Positions 13,383-25,399 of a stretch of DNA of 32,142 nt are shown here, piece after piece. This DNA comes from Bacteroidales bacterium (lineage in GTDB: Bacteria > Bacteroidota > Bacteroidia > Bacteroidales > UBA12481), in the NCBI GenBank assembly GCA_012523435.1, contig JAAYIP010000171.1, positions 1-32,142 on the forward strand, read 5' to 3'. Within the stretch, counting starts at the first letter, position 1; each line of letters begins with the position of its first letter. Both the position numbers and the translations under genes were made by a program. The notes beneath the pieces are model-generated. The model was not told the DNA's origin. It saw only the letters and a program-made list of their open reading frames with translations, and did no database searches.

Positions 13383-15584
13383 TTATCTGATTAATTTGAT
13401 AACCTGGTTGTTAACTTTTAGGAAGTAAATGCCTTTAGCAAAGTCGCTCAAGTCGATAGGTTCATTGAAGCTCAGTTGCGACTTAACGACCCGGTAGTAC
13501 ACCTGGCGGCCTTGGATGTCCATGACTGAGATATGCAGATCGGTTGGGATCTGATTATCAACTTTCAGGTTGAACAGTCCATTATCTGATGGGTTCGGGT
13601 ACACGGTGATGCCCGTCTGGATATCGTTGGGGTCAATGCCCATGCTGATTCCATTATTATACACATCATCTAAGTTATTGTAGAAGGTTGTCCGATACAC
13701 ACGGTTTGCTCCGCTGGACGGAAACTCTGAGGTGTCCCAATTGCCGTTGATCCGGTATTTGTATTCAATTTTGTCAAAGATTGGAAATCCGGATACGGTT
13801 AGCGTATAAATTCCATCTCCGTCGGTATCCTCCATGTGGGCTGAACCATTCCATTCGTTGAAGGTACCGGCAATATCCAGGAAATCAGTGCCCGGAATAA
13901 AATAGCCGTTCGTGATGGGCAGTGTCATATCCACGTTGAAGGTAATATCAGCTTCGCTCGGGGCTCCTGTGTTGTTCAGGTTCAACCTGATCATGGAGCA
14001 GTCCTCATTGATGTACCAGGTGTTATCGTCGTTCAGGCAATAAACTGTTTTCCCGGGAGCATAGCGGTGGCTCATATCTGAACCGATGGTAAAACGGTAA
14101 ACGCTATTATCCGGATCATCTACCCCGCCTCCATGAAACACCTGAATAGCAGCAATATAGGTCCCTGGCTCCAGGAATTCCGATTCACCATCTTTCATCC
14201 ATTCCAGGGTTACCCAATTGTTGATCATGCTCTCTTCTACTTCGGTAAATTCGGAGGTCATCAAATCCACCCAAACTGCGTCTGTTGAATTCCATTTGTA
14301 AAGCCAGTATTGGAAGTTATATCCTACCTGAGTACTTGCTTGAGGGGCTTGAGCTCTTTGCATGATAGCGCACGACATGGAATTGACTTCACACGTCTCG
14401 TTGATATCATAAACAATGCCTATCCAGTCGCCATCGTTGTTCCCGTGACCGGCGGTGCTGGAGTGCGATTCCCACTCCCAGTCGCAGATAGAGTAAACGC
14501 TATCGGTAACATAATAGGTGTCGGAATAGACATTATTTTCAGGAATTGCGTCAATTTCATCCTGCTTGGCTGTCAACACCATTTTATAGTCGCCGTAACC
14601 ATCCGGATTGAATGGGGTGGCGACATCAAAGGTGTCGCGCGAAAGCATCCATATGTCGCGCATATCGGAGTTTTCATTATAAACGGAAGTTCCGTTTTTG
14701 AATACTTCCGCATTCAGATGGCAATTGGTTTGATCCTGTATCCCGCTGTTGATCAGAGCTCCGGCGAACGTATAACCACCGAAATCATTTGAGCCGGTCT
14801 GAGAAAAGGGAACCATATAAAAGAATCCCTCGTCATTATCCTGATCAGAATAATCGGTCATATACAGCCATGATTTTTCAAGCTTAATTTCATTCTGATA
14901 GCCTTCTGACAGCTCAAAGTCGTCGATACACCAATAATAGTGGCTGTTATCATTCCACTGGAAGCGAATCCAGACAACAGGTTGACCAGCTGCTATGTCA
15001 GAGATATTCATCTCCACAATTGGGTAGATACAATGAATGTTTGTATCGGTCTCAAATCGGGAGTCGATGGTTGACCAGCGTAGACCTTCGTCAATGCTGA
15101 TCATGACTTTCACATTGGGAGCACCGCAGCAGGCGCGGAAGTTCTGACGGTATTTCATAATGACCGATGAGCGGTCGGAGCAATCGATCGGTGGAAACTG
15201 GAACCAAGCGGTGCCACCCACCTGTGTGAACACATTATCCCGATAGTTGTATTCATCCATCGGTAACACAAAGAATCCGTCTTCCGGAGTTTTGGAATAG
15301 ATGTGGCCGGGCTCAAAGGTGTAGCGGCCTTTGATACTGTCATTTCTCCAAACCCAGAAGAATCCATTATCACTCTCGTCTGTGACAATATACCCTTCGG
15401 GCAGAGTCCAGCCTTTGGGATCATCCGGATTTGCAAAGTCGAAAGTCTCTAAAAAGAATACATCGCCCTCTGCTTTCAATTGGGAATGATCCTGGATTGG
15501 TAACACACTCACTTCCTTGCTATAAGGAACATGATGATTGCTGGTCTGCAACTTCTGACCATAGGAGATGGTGAAGATCAACAA
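13383..15584 (-). CDS. Secreted T9SS type A sorting domain protein (start disrupted)
   Basis: There are 733 open codons from a TTG at 15584. The C-terminal 75 residues or so are a type A sorting domain (ITVYPNPSDNG..., a middle segment with MDIQGRQV, end FAKGIYFLKVNNQVIKLI) that directs export through the type IX system and attachment to the surface. Ahead of it is a module of about 100 residues (ITFNVDMTLP, then IAGTFNEWNG and DTDGDGIYTLTV) resembling starch/glycogen-binding E-set folds. The N-terminal two thirds is beta-rich with many aromatic and acidic residues, resembling extracellular adhesion or binding proteins; no catalytic motif was recognised. The natural ATG appears to be at 15614, but its third codon is TAA, so the gene may be a recent pseudogene (see the separate entry). 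Confidence 0.75.
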   Translation of the reverse strand: MLIFTISYGQKLQTSNHHVPYSKEVSVLPIQDHSQLKAEGDVFFLETFDFANPDDPKGWTLPEGYIVTDESDNGFFWVWRNDSIKGRYTFEPGHIYSKTPEDGFFVLPMDEYNYRDNVFTQVGGTAWFQFPPIDCSDRSSVIMKYRQNFRACCGAPNVKVMISIDEGLRWSTIDSRFETDTNIHCIYPIVEMNISDIAAGQPVVWIRFQWNDNSHYYWCIDDFELSEGYQNEIKLEKSWLYMTDYSDQDNDEGFFYMVPFSQTGSNDFGGYTFAGALINSGIQDQTNCHLNAEVFKNGTSVYNENSDMRDIWMLSRDTFDVATPFNPDGYGDYKMVLTAKQDEIDAIPENNVYSDTYYVTDSVYSICDWEWESHSSTAGHGNNDGDWIGIVYDINETCEVNSMSCAIMQRAQAPQASTQVGYNFQYWLYKWNSTDAVWVDLMTSEFTEVEESMINNWVTLEWMKDGESEFLEPGTYIAAIQVFHGGGVDDPDNSVYRFTIGSDMSHRYAPGKTVYCLNDDNTWYINEDCSMIRLNLNNTGAPSEADITFNVDMTLPITNGYFIPGTDFLDIAGTFNEWNGSAHMEDTDGDGIYTLTVSGFPIFDKIEYKYRINGNWDTSEFPSSGANRVYRTTFYNNLDDVYNNGISMGIDPNDIQTGITVYPNPSDNGLFNLKVDNQIPTDLHISVMDIQGRQVYYRVVKSQLSFNEPIDLSDFAKGIYFLKVNNQVIKLIR

Positions 15585-15614
15585 TGAAGCGATAATTAGT
15601 GTAAATTATTTCAT
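15585..15614 (-). other. Original start and signal peptide of the T9SS-cargo gene, interrupted by TAA
   Basis: On the minus strand, ATG at 15614-15612 is followed by AAA and then TAA at 15608-15606. The frame then continues FTLIIAS into the open frame LLIFTISYGQ. Together this reads as a normal Bacteroidota signal peptide, MK-x-FTLIIASLLIFTISYGQ, with one lysine-like codon changed to stop. A single base change (AAA to TAA) would explain it. Confidence 0.75.
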
Positions 15615-15644: not shown

Positions 15645-15672
15645 GTTAATGTAAGCCATTTGTTGTTAATGT
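15645..15672. repeat. Direct repeat GTTAATGT, possible regulator site
   Basis: GTTAATGT occurs exactly at 15645-15652 and again at 15665-15672, with 12 bases between. It overlaps the candidate promoter of the T9SS-cargo gene, and the adjacent upstream gene encodes a LytTR regulator. The first copy lies in ACCGTTAAT, which fits the published LytTR half-site pattern; the second copy fits only in its core. Confidence 0.4.
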
Positions 15673-15676
15673 CAAA
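15646..15676 (-). promoter_or_regulatory. Candidate promoter of the T9SS-cargo gene
   Basis: On the minus strand a TTTG (15676-15673) is followed after exactly 19 bases by TACATTAA (15653-15646), the spacing of Bacteroidota promoters. The -7 box has two mismatches from TAnnTTTG. It lies 31 bases upstream of the disrupted ATG. Confidence 0.4.
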
Positions 15677-15766: not shown

Positions 15767-16528
15767 TCAAGTGGAGCGGGCCTGTTCTTTCATCTTCTGG
15801 ATGAACTCTTTCTTTTTTCGTTCACTCACATCAACCTGGGATCCATCGTCAAACACGATGTATCCACCGCGACCGGAGATGTATTTTTTCACAAAGTTGA
15901 GGTTCACCAGATGCTTGCTGTGAACGCGAACAAAGGAGAGGTCGGACAGTAACTTCTCAAAATTGTTAAGAGTTTTGGAGGTGACGATCCGTTGGCCGGT
16001 TTTGATATAGAAGACCGTATAACTGCCATTGGCCTCACAACGAACGATATCGGAGATCTTGTAAACTTCAAATCCGTCCATAGAAGAGAGTATAATCCGC
16101 TCGTTCCGGTTATCCATGCTCTCTTTAAAAACAGATACGCGTGTAGATATTTTGGTATCCTTCCGAATCTTCTGGTATCGTTCAACTGCCTGCTGTAACT
16201 TTTCAGCCGAGATCGGCTTGAGCAAATAGTCGAGCGCCGAAAATTCAAAAGCTTTCAGCGCATATTGATCGTAAGCCGTGGTAAAAATCACTTCGAAGTC
16301 GTTCGATACTACCTCATCGAGAATTTCAAATCCCTGGCCGTCAGGTAGGGCAATATCCAGAAACAGTAGTTCCGGCTTGACTGAATTGATAAGTTCAATG
16401 GCTGATTCAACGGTTTGTGCTGATCCAACTATTTGTATATCAGGACAGTACTTTTGGATGAGAATAGACAGAGCTTCCAGACTGTTTTCTTCATCATCGA
16501 CTATAACTGCTTGAACCTTAGCTTCCAT
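15767..16528 (-). CDS. LytTR family DNA-binding response regulator
   Basis: The 253-residue protein has an N-terminal receiver domain (about 1-125) with acidic Asp11 and Asp12, phospho-acceptor Asp58 in LLFLDIALPDG, and the conserved Thr/Lys positions in FTTAYDQYALKAFE and LLKPIS. A LytTR DNA-binding domain covers about residues 148-250. It is a cytoplasmic transcription regulator. No histidine kinase gene is adjacent, so its partner lies elsewhere. Unusually for this window, a strong Shine-Dalgarno sequence, GGGAGG, lies 5 bases before the ATG, which supports this start. It lies between dxs and the T9SS-cargo gene on the same strand. Confidence 0.93.
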   Translation of the reverse strand: MEAKVQAVIVDDEENSLEALSILIQKYCPDIQIVGSAQTVESAIELINSVKPELLFLDIALPDGQGFEILDEVVSNDFEVIFTTAYDQYALKAFEFSALDYLLKPISAEKLQQAVERYQKIRKDTKISTRVSVFKESMDNRNERIILSSMDGFEVYKISDIVRCEANGSYTVFYIKTGQRIVTSKTLNNFEKLLSDLSFVRVHSKHLVNLNFVKKYISGRGGYIVFDDGSQVDVSERKKKEFIQKMKEQARST

Positions 16529-20780: not shown

Positions 20781-21617
20781 TTATTCAGAATCTAATTCAT
20801 TGCCCTGTCCTGCTTCTTCGACATTTGCTTCGCGTCTGCGGATGGGTTTTCTTTCACGACGGCGGGAAGTACTCTCTTCGATTACTTCCTCGCTTTTTGG
20901 TTTTGCAGAGGCTTCTTTTTCCTTTTCTGATTTCCGCTCATTAAGCCCCTCTTCGATGGCTTTACACATGATGTCGGTTATCAGATAGATGGATTTGGAG
21001 GCATCATCATTAGCCGGGATGACGAAATCGATCATCTCGGGATCTGAGTTGGTGTCAACCATTCCGAATACCGGGATGTTGAGTTTGCGGGCTTCATTCA
21101 CGGCGATATGCTCTTTGCACACATCGATCACGAACAGAGCTGCTGGCAGGCGAGTCAGATCTTTGATGGAGCCGAGGAGTTTTTCCAGCTTGGCTCTCTG
21201 CCTGGAGACCTGGAGGCGCTCACGTTTCGACATATGATCAAAGGTGCCGTCGGTCGACATTTTGTCGATCGAGTTCATCTTTTTGACGGCTTTTCTGACC
21301 GTAGGGAAGTTGGTGAGCATTCCCCCCGACCACCGTTCGGTGACAAAAGGCATTCCGGTTTGCTGCACCCGTTCAGCCACAATCTCTTTGGCCTGTTTTT
21401 TTGTGGCGACAAAGAGGACTTTACGGCCCGACCGGGCGATACGTTTCATGGCTTCGGCCGCTTCGTCAATCTTGACAGCGGTTTTGTGGAGGTCGATGAT
21501 ATGGATCCCATTCTTCTCCATGAAGATATAGGGGGCCATGTTCGGGTTCCACTTACGTTTCAGATGACCGAAATGTACTCCGGCATCAAGTAATTCCTGG
21601 AAATTTGTTCTTGGCAT
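20781..21617 (-). CDS. rpsB: 30S ribosomal protein S2
   Basis: The 278-residue protein has the S2 signatures LLDAGVHFGHLKRKWNP at the N-terminus, then FVTERWSGGMLTNF and, further on, GMVDTNSDPEMIDFVIPAND. It is longer than the bacterial core of about 240 residues because of a charged Glu/Lys/Arg-rich tail of about 45 residues from residue 232 or so, a common feature in this phylum. It is preceded by a 106-base spacer with two hairpins that may be a regulatory leader. Confidence 0.97.
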   Translation of the reverse strand: MPRTNFQELLDAGVHFGHLKRKWNPNMAPYIFMEKNGIHIIDLHKTAVKIDEAAEAMKRIARSGRKVLFVATKKQAKEIVAERVQQTGMPFVTERWSGGMLTNFPTVRKAVKKMNSIDKMSTDGTFDHMSKRERLQVSRQRAKLEKLLGSIKDLTRLPAALFVIDVCKEHIAVNEARKLNIPVFGMVDTNSDPEMIDFVIPANDDASKSIYLITDIMCKAIEEGLNERKSEKEKEASAKPKSEEVIEESTSRRRERKPIRRREANVEEAGQGNELDSE

Positions 21618-21723
21618 TTTTATAATCTTAGTTTACCTTCTGATTTAGCAACCTTCCGGTAGTTCCGTCATCCGGAAGTCCGGCAAGTTTAGATACTAAA
21701 CTAAACTCTCTACTAACCGATCC
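21618..21723 (-). promoter_or_regulatory. Structured leader between rpsI and rpsB
   Basis: Two inverted repeats lie in this spacer: CTTCCGG / CCGGAAG (21653-21678, 12-base loop) and GTTTAG / CTAAAC (21687-21701, 3-base loop). Neither is followed by a T-run, so they do not look like terminators. No TAnnTTTG promoter is visible. The spacer is far longer than the other gaps in this operon, which suggests a cis-regulatory or processing element for rpsB-tsf. Confidence 0.5.
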
Positions 21724-22110
21724 TTAACGTTTCGAGAACTGGAAGCGTCTGCGGGCTCCTGGGCGACCTGGTTTCTTCCTCTCAACCACTCTTGGGTCAC
21801 GGGTAAGAAAACCGTTGGCGCGCAGCACCTTTTTGCATTCCGGATCGATCTCAACCAGCGCGCGGGCAATGGCAAGCCTCAAAGCTTCGGCCTGGCCTCT
21901 GGTTCCACCACCATCTAAATTGGCACGGATGTCATATTTGTCAATTACTTCAAGAACAGTAAGTGGTTGTTTGACAATGTGCTGAAGCTGGAAGAGCGGA
22001 AAATATTCGGATAGTTCTTTCTTGTTGACCGTTATCTGTCCTTTTCCTTCGTTGACAAAGACGCGGGCTACTGCAGCCTTTCTCCGGCCAATGGTATTGA
22101 TCAGTTCCAT
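21724..22110 (-). CDS. rpsI: 30S ribosomal protein S9
   Basis: The 128-residue protein starts with INTIGRRKAAVARVFV. It contains LDGGGTRGQAEALRLAIARAL and the basic tail KKPGRPGARRRFQFSKR, whose final KR reaches the P-site tRNA in known ribosomes. It follows rplM after five bases. Confidence 0.98.
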   Translation of the reverse strand: MELINTIGRRKAAVARVFVNEGKGQITVNKKELSEYFPLFQLQHIVKQPLTVLEVIDKYDIRANLDGGGTRGQAEALRLAIARALVEIDPECKKVLRANGFLTRDPRVVERKKPGRPGARRRFQFSKR

Positions 22111-22740: not shown

Positions 22741-23658
22741 TCAACAGTAGAGTGCTTTCTCAATCTGCCTCGTCAGTCGTAAAGCCTGGAAGCTCTCCTC
22801 CAGCCCGGAGTGAACCTCCTGCCCCTGCTGAAGTGAGTGAATCAGACGAAGGCATTGATTTGCGGCAATCCGCTCCGGCAAAGTATCCTCTTTTGTGTCA
22901 CCAGATGGATCAGGTGGCCAGAGAGTGGCTTCCTCGCGGTGCCAACGTTCATCATGCCGGATATAACGGGTAAAGCGGCTGGTGTTATTTAGCAAGTCTA
23001 ACAATATCACGCCATTGTGTTGCCTGACGAAGAACTGTCGAGTCGGTGGGGCCTCATCAGTATTAATGATCAGATTGATAACCAATCCGTTAAAAAACTC
23101 GATTCTGGCATCAATCTGGCTGAGCAAGGAGCCTCCATACCAGGTGGCATGTGGCCTCACCTTTTTAACGGTGCTACCAACCAGCCCAATGGCTAGATCG
23201 AGATCAGCAAAGACAGCGAGAACGGCTTCCCGCTCCGGGTTGGCGGAAGATAGTAAACCGGGCTGATGAATGATCTGGATGTGTTGCGGATGGTCCAGAT
23301 AAGAACGAATACTCCGGTAAACCGGCAAATGCCGCTCAGAATAACCGGCTTGGATCTGCACCCGCGCCTCCCTTGCCAGATCAAGCAAACATTGAGCCTC
23401 GTCAATAAAATCAGATACGGGAAAGCCCAGCGATACATGACGGGATTTGCGAATCACCCGTGAAATATCAGCAAAACCTCCATCAAGATTTTCCGGAATC
23501 CAGACCAGATCCGACGCATCAATCAGGCGATCTGTCTCCCGCTGATCCGATACCAACGGATTAACCCACCCAGCGATATGGCAACCCATTGCCTCCAGAT
23601 CACCCGAAAGCATCGTCGACCATTTTTGGTCAGCTGCCAATATCCCTACCGTTTTCAT
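22741..23658 (-). CDS. Gfo/Idh/MocA-fold protein lacking the catalytic residues
   Basis: The 305-residue protein follows the layout of Gfo/Idh/MocA oxidoreductases: a Rossmann half (about 1-110), then an alpha/beta half with IQAGYSERHLPVYRSIR, VFADLDLAIGLVGSTVKKV and IDARIEFFNGLVINL. Key sites are changed. The nucleotide-binding GxGxxG is absent (GILAADQKW), the EKP lysine motif is replaced by SLGFP at 76-80, and the catalytic His before DLDL is an alanine (FADLDL, 150-155). It may therefore be a pseudoenzyme or a sugar/nucleotide-binding regulator. It lies upstream of rplM on the same strand and diverges from the O-antigen ligase gene. Confidence 0.72.
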   Translation of the reverse strand: MKTVGILAADQKWSTMLSGDLEAMGCHIAGWVNPLVSDQRETDRLIDASDLVWIPENLDGGFADISRVIRKSRHVSLGFPVSDFIDEAQCLLDLAREARVQIQAGYSERHLPVYRSIRSYLDHPQHIQIIHQPGLLSSANPEREAVLAVFADLDLAIGLVGSTVKKVRPHATWYGGSLLSQIDARIEFFNGLVINLIINTDEAPPTRQFFVRQHNGVILLDLLNNTSRFTRYIRHDERWHREEATLWPPDPSGDTKEDTLPERIAANQCLRLIHSLQQGQEVHSGLEESFQALRLTRQIEKALYC

Positions 23659-23743
23659 CGTTAATCATCACAAAGTAACCTTATTTCCAGGGCGATTCCG
23701 CGGTTCTGCCCGACTATTTATCAAATGATACCTGTGGAAAACC

Positions 23744-23751
23744 TACATTTG
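23744..23751 (+). promoter_or_regulatory. -7 box for the O-antigen ligase-type gene
   Basis: TACATTTG matches TAnnTTTG exactly and lies 19 bases before the ATG at 23771. A -33 TTG is not evident at 19 bases, so confidence is moderate. Confidence 0.4.
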
Positions 23752-23770
23752 TGTAACCAATAACCGGGTA

Positions 23771-25399
23771 ATGATCCGATCCGACCTCAGTAAAGATCAG
23801 ATATTTAGGGGGTTATATCTGCTTGCACTATTCGTGCTGTTGGTATGCCTGCCGTTATCAAAATATGTCGCCAGCGCTGCCCAGCTCTTCCTGGCTATTG
23901 TCTGGCTGGCAGAGGGAAAGTTCGTCACTAAATGGCAACGCTTTCGCCAACGGCCAGCCATCGCGGTTTTTATGCTGCTCTACCTGGTGCACCTTGTCGG
24001 CCTGGCTTGGACAGCCGACCTGTCGACCGGCCTTCACGATCTGAAGATTAAGCTCCCCCTGCTGGGGCTCCCGCTAATCTTAGGAACTATAGATCCTTTG
24101 AATCACCGGGAGCTGAAGATGGTCCTGGGCGGGTTTGTGGTGGGAGTGTTGGTCGGAAGTTTGATATCGCTCAGTATTATATTGGGGATCAGTCATGTAG
24201 AGTATCTCGACGACAGGCAATCCAGTCTCTTTATCTCTCACATTCGGTTTGCGCTGATGATCAACCTGGCCATCTTCATCCTGGCTTGGTATGCTGCCAA
24301 ACCGGGGCTCCGGATTTGGCATCGGATCCTGCTGATAGCTACCGGGCTCTATCTGGTGGGTTTTCTGTTCATCTTCAAATCCCTGACGGGAGTTGTGGTG
24401 GTGATCATAGGAGGATTGATTGTGGGCCTCTTTTACGGGCTTCGATCCCGGGAGTTGTTGGTGCGTTGGTTTGTTATTGTTAGTGCTGCCACGCTGCCAC
24501 TTTTTACGGTCCTTTACCTTACCAATCAAGTTGATCGCTTCTACACGGTCAGGGAGAGCAGGGAACAGCTTGATAATAAGACTATCAGGGGAAATTCTTA
24601 TTATCACGATTTGCAGAACAGCGAGAGAGAGAACGGCTATTTTGTCTGGCAATACCTTTGTGAGCCAGAGTTAGCCGAAGCTTGGTCGGTGGTGAGTGAG
24701 CTACCCTATGATGGGCGCGACCTGAAAGGCCAGGAGTTGAAATACACGCTAATCCGGTACCTCACCTCCTTGGGATTGCGGAAGGATGCCCACGGGGTGT
24801 CGCAGCTGACGGAGGAGGATATCCGGTTGATAGAAAAAGGTTTTGCTAGTTCCATTTATCGGGAGCCAGGTCGGTTCCGAATCAAGATTTACGAGTTAAT
24901 CTGGGAGCTCGACCACTACCGGAAGGGTGGGAATCCGGGTGGTCATTCGGTGACGCAGCGTTTGGAGTTTCTCAGAACAGGTTGGGCGATATTCGCTGAG
25001 CAGCCGGTTGTTGGAGTGGGAACGGGCGATGTGTCGGCCGCCTTTGCATCGAAGTATGAGGAGTTGGATTCGATGTTGCCGCCGCAATATCGCTTGCGTG
25101 CGCACAACCAGTTCCTCACTTTTGGCATTGCCGTGGGGCTGGTGGGTGGGCTACTGAGCCTGATAGCACTCTTTATGCCGATTTTTATCGAAAAGAAGCA
25201 TCGCTCTTACCTGGCACTCATGTTTCTGTTGATCTCGCTGCTATCGATGCTCAACGAAGATACCCTGGAAACCCAGGCGGGAGTGGCTTTTTTTGCTGTA
25301 TTTTACGCTCTTTTCGTATTTTGTAATATTAAGACTCATGAAAAACCACGATCACGAGCTACTCTCCAGGGCGATTCAGCTGGCCCGCGAGAATGTTAA
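23771..25399 (+). CDS. O-antigen ligase/polymerase family membrane protein
   Basis: The 542-residue protein has about ten to twelve hydrophobic helices. A large hydrophilic segment lies at about residues 255-405, before the conserved motif region PVVGVGTGDV and RAHNQFLTFGIAVGL, which matches the Wzy_C/WaaL periplasmic loop where an Arg and a His are expected. Members join O-antigen or other undecaprenyl-linked glycans to an acceptor, or polymerise them, at the outer face of the inner membrane. The large loop is usual in Bacteroidota homologues. Its last 62 bases overlap the start of the guanine deaminase gene in another frame. No other glycan genes are nearby, so the substrate cannot be guessed. 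Confidence 0.85.
   Translation: MIRSDLSKDQIFRGLYLLALFVLLVCLPLSKYVASAAQLFLAIVWLAEGKFVTKWQRFRQRPAIAVFMLLYLVHLVGLAWTADLSTGLHDLKIKLPLLGLPLILGTIDPLNHRELKMVLGGFVVGVLVGSLISLSIILGISHVEYLDDRQSSLFISHIRFALMINLAIFILAWYAAKPGLRIWHRILLIATGLYLVGFLFIFKSLTGVVVVIIGGLIVGLFYGLRSRELLVRWFVIVSAATLPLFTVLYLTNQVDRFYTVRESREQLDNKTIRGNSYYHDLQNSERENGYFVWQYLCEPELAEAWSVVSELPYDGRDLKGQELKYTLIRYLTSLGLRKDAHGVSQLTEEDIRLIEKGFASSIYREPGRFRIKIYELIWELDHYRKGGNPGGHSVTQRLEFLRTGWAIFAEQPVVGVGTGDVSAAFASKYEELDSMLPPQYRLRAHNQFLTFGIAVGLVGGLLSLIALFMPIFIEKKHRSYLALMFLLISLLSMLNEDTLETQAGVAFFAVFYALFVFCNIKTHEKPRSRATLQGDSAGPREC

Follow-up and report, generated by a model that had tools for sequence, protein, structure and literature searches.

A gene for an exported surface protein on the minus strand of the analysed DNA (the window, 32,142 nucleotides in full) carries a TAA stop as its third codon, where its homologues carry a sense codon. 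Its start codon is conserved, the remainder of its frame is intact, and it bears no trace of a long relaxation of selection. We consider it probable, at about 0.55, that this is a very recent null or pseudogene allele of a surface protein that is otherwise retained. According to this reading, a nonsense mutation would have arisen very recently at codon 3 in the sampled strain, in a long-conserved and otherwise intact gene whose product is predicted to be a surface protein of several beta-sandwich domains, exported through Sec and the T9SS. Translation would begin at the conserved ATG at 15614 and terminate after two residues, and no exported protein would be made, since the next alternative starts along the frame still fall within the signal peptide. 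Both the presence of this base in the cell itself and the absence of a product are inferred.

The early stop and the start of the gene

Direct reading of the minus strand from 15614 to 15606 gives ATG AAA TAA, in agreement with the initial annotation. The start codon occupies 15612..15614, codon 2 (AAA) 15611-15609 and the stop 15606..15608. After the TAA the strand continues as TTT ACA CTA ATT ATC GCT TCA TTG TTG ATC TTC ACC ATC TCC TAT GGT CAG. The frame from the ATG comprises 743 codons, codon 3 being the sole stop inside it, and its own terminal stop lies at 13385-13383. The open frame behind the early stop (13383..15605, minus strand), which encodes the T9SS-exported, all-beta multi-domain protein, is 740 codons long plus the stop; the 733 open codons counted initially are correct from the TTG at 15584, but not as the length after the early stop. 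This frame is not random, as it shows 56-59% protein identity to intact orthologues over ~730 residues and its start is aligned in 22/22 homologues. Relative to these orthologues at the same locus the lesion is a disabling one, as in a nonsense pseudogene.

The 22 homologues are all homologous copies from related genomes that have a readable 5' end. Every one of them opens with ATG AAA, has AAA, AAG or AGA as codon 3 and continues into a signal peptide of the same kind. Hence the ATG at 15614 is the ancestral start, and the start of the gene is not in doubt. The premise of the initial annotation, a start at this ATG and a sense Lys/Arg codon 3, thus stands. A true start further downstream, which would have removed that premise, is ruled out, since the homologues start at exactly this position. 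The interrupted Sec signal peptide region (15549..15614, minus strand) reads M-K-stop-FTLIIASLLIFTISYGQK, and the alignment with homologue signal peptides, which are of the MKRFTLLL...LSYGQK kind, agrees with the textbook signal peptide described initially; cleavage would be expected near ..SYG-Q. The homologues have this peptide intact, whereas in the window gene the TAA leaves no translatable N-terminal Sec signal peptide.

The number of base changes behind the stop depends on the ancestral codon 3. At this locus related genera have AAA, whereas most copies from the same genus have AGA; in the tree, the window gene splits off close to the base between these two groups. Hence one or two changes separate it from its ancestor: the single change proposed at first is one possibility, two changes the other.

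The protein, its locus and its relatives

A T9SS type A sorting domain at the C-terminal end (13401..13604, minus strand; residues 661-728 of the downstream ORF) had been recognized from the sequence and is confirmed by both PF18962 (4.5e-13; 49.7 bits, cut-off 27) and TIGR04183 (6.7e-12; 45.2 bits, cut-off 23). It is preceded by a CBM48 / AMPK-CBM-like beta-sandwich (13731..13895, minus strand; residues 564-618). The PF02922 match to the latter (2.7e-4) falls just under the cut-off in the window protein; 11/16 family members match at E<=0.1, the best at 8.8e-9. The AlphaFold2 model is all beta and of low confidence (mean pLDDT 63), Foldseek returned only unspecific multi-domain beta proteins with a query TM <0.2, and no function is drawn from this structural evidence. 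Sequence matches in the PDB are limited to the C-terminal sorting-domain region. The architecture allows the guess that the protein is perhaps a surface adhesin or binds carbohydrates or glycans. The genome also encodes SprA, PorV and PorU, all above cut-off, with SprA truncated by a contig end; their presence indicates that export itself has not been lost. With its sorting domain, its Sec signal peptide region and this machinery, the window gene resembles the type A substrates of the T9SS (TIGR04183 / PF18962), but its signal peptide is interrupted at codon 3.

Upstream of the gene, a promoter-like site (TTGACA, 16 nt, TACATT; 15648..15675, minus strand) is a consensus match only, and such sites total 7 in the region against 5.3 expected, not above shuffles. 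The conserved upstream neighbour is a LytTR-type response regulator (15767..16528, minus strand; PF00072, PF04397), found with 72-79% identity at the same position in 10 relatives. The gene order pyrH, frr, dxs, LytTR regulator, surface gene(s), dCMP deaminase and S41 protease is common to the relatives up to contig limits.

The initial annotation had suggested comparing the locus among relatives. This was done with eleven genomes from within the family, seven of them of the same genus and none conspecific, and it revealed intact copies with a sense Lys/Arg codon 3. The relatives have one to three close copies of the surface gene, and each relative with a full-length copy has at least one intact copy, often accompanied by a shorter paralogue; the window has a single copy, the one with the stop. 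One relative has a tandem copy with TAA at codon 30 (L052; G004:C82:42989-45178) beside an intact sister copy. Matches to the surface-protein family number 6-20 per relative (G001-G011) vs 8 in the window's genome, and matches to the sorting domain 37 to 150 vs 34. A search of genome collections yielded no closer or conspecific genome, the nearest showing about 56-60% protein identity. Similarly, the window's own assembly has no second intact allele or copy of the locus, and the DNA pattern of the locus gave 0 matches in viral contigs.

Other lesions in the genome and the age of the loss

The genome has 34 matches to the sorting domain, of which 24 are scorable substrates once seven cut by contig ends, one spurious match, PorU itself and one unclear case are set aside. 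Six of the 24, the window gene included, are broken. A paralogue in the same genome (L059; G000:C324, 11942-13282) is frameshifted by one base directly behind the conserved stretch ..FFSETFGWENP, a surface protein (L113, C130) has a TAG, an HExxH metalloprotease-like gene (L129, C332) a nonsense TAA and a further substrate (L127, C201) a frameshift ahead of its sorting domain. A Kelch-like gene (L126, C78) has several lesions and is therefore a real pseudogene. As a control, 61 non-T9SS regions (59.7 kb) were tested by homology against the genes of two relatives, and one of the 61 turned out to be broken. It is a beta-propeller-like (PQQ-type) gene (L144:8362; G000:C47) with a lone TGA at a conserved Gly, intact in the relative G003. 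The contrast of 6/24 with 1/61 gives a Fisher p=0.002 and, for lesions per base, p=0.04, with two detection methods, small numbers and controls biased to conserved genes. In the relatives G003 and G004 about 3/38 T9SS substrates are broken, and the difference from the window's genome (6/25 vs 3/38) is not significant (p=0.14).

A de novo scan of codon usage for nonsense lesions returned mostly antisense shadows, and the homology test was adopted because these candidates were unreliable. Apparent stops near 23396-23771 and ~20874-21959 of the window were discarded as alignments crossing antisense or intergenic DNA.

The 740 codons after the early stop contain no other stop or frameshift. The absence of a second lesion bounds the neutral divergence since the loss at about 0.8-1.9%, if 3.8-4.4% of substitutions are nonsense changes and the indel ratio is taken as 0.05-0.2. 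Identity to the relative G010 by codon position is 0.69/0.77/0.40, and similar for the others, which indicates long purifying selection. The distance to outgroups is 0.91 for the window gene and 0.87-1.15 for its sisters, hence no longer, and likewise the adjacent LytTR regulator is no more distant than its sister genes. The window gene thus shows neither further decay nor relaxed selection, as expected if the loss is very recent or if the stop is an assembly error. Given the intact remainder, the unaccelerated branch and the T9SS machinery that is still present, any loss must be recent; therefore the change is either recent or absent from the cell altogether. The very recent loss put forward in the initial annotation gains support in its recency from the same intact remainder and unaccelerated branch.

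Weighing the explanations

The options listed at the outset were the right ones, although they were left unranked. The null allele and a consensus error are both ordinary. The latter, in which the gene is intact in the cell and one contig base is wrong or two near-identical tandem copies have collapsed, is a distinct possibility, though we hold it to be the less probable of the two. It would fit a gene that has no lesion apart from the stop and is still constrained. The fragmented assembly (2.64 Mb, 369 contigs), presumably a MAG, counts in its favour and against a null allele, and so does the lone nonsense codon at the conserved Gly of the non-T9SS gene (L144:8362), of the sort that base-call errors would give; the relative's tandem copy with its TAA at codon 30 is another lone nonsense. 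Furthermore, tandem copies in the relatives are often located at contig ends, so this gene family is hard to assemble. Against an error stand the concentration of the lesions in T9SS substrates instead of a spread over coding DNA, the Kelch-like gene among them being a real pseudogene, and the assembly having no second copy of the locus. Since random errors would not give such a bias, real recent inactivation is favoured. Comparison with known cases runs along the same lines. Single-base consensus errors in metagenome assemblies share the lone disabling change, the constrained gene and the fragmented assembly, but the lesions of this genome, unlike errors, lean to one functional class. Recent nonsense pseudogenes and strain-level null alleles of bacterial surface proteins are alike in having one early stop with the rest intact, in a probably nonessential exported protein with intact copies in relatives; they differ in that the stop in the window is read from an assembled contig.

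That the gene is still expressed, by re-initiation at the TTG at 15584 (or at a non-standard ATT/ATC start), by readthrough or by a suppressor tRNA, appears improbable. Conserved coding sequence follows directly after the stop, and the TTG is the eighth codon past it, so re-initiation there is possible in principle. The resulting product, beginning MLIFTISYGQ, would however be without the charged n-region, and the greater part of the hydrophobic core would be missing too, although both are retained in all homologues; this bears out the initial view that a signal peptide from this start is too short; from what is generally known of Sec signal peptides, export of such a product is unlikely. A single recoded codon is not a general explanation either, because TAA, TAG and TGA are each found in lesions of this genome, along with frameshifts; other window genes are read normally, and the scanned part of the genome, with only two tRNA genes in it, showed no suppressor tRNA. 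Reversible ON/OFF phase variation seems highly improbable, and so does the loss of a surface antigen under selection (e.g. in escape from phages or grazers), even though the gene encodes a surface protein, the lesions of this genome are enriched in T9SS substrates and a selected loss would resemble a recent pseudogene. Like phase-variable contingency genes, the window gene is a surface protein gene switched off at its 5' end, but it lacks their repeat tract or invertible segment: a search near the stop for tandem repeats, inverted repeats or an invertible element found none, and hence no known switching mechanism applies. A single substitution is not known to act as a fast switch. The phase-variation-like option of the initial annotation is accordingly set aside, and nothing speaks for the loss being adaptive. 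A broader reading, that null mutations of very recent date, each arisen independently, are stripping the lineage of its T9SS surface proteins, with this stop as one step of selected antigen loss, is unlikely in our estimate; behind it stand the 6/24 broken substrates, the one copy of the gene compared with two or three in most sisters, and the smaller genome.

For annotation, the true start of the gene is at 15614; automatic gene calling will probably place it at the TTG at 15584 instead and so miss the signal peptide. Should the lesion be real, the null allele would represent the recent loss of one surface protein, an ordinary event. Should the excess of broken T9SS substrates be borne out, this genome would provide a usable case of ongoing erosion of a surface proteome.
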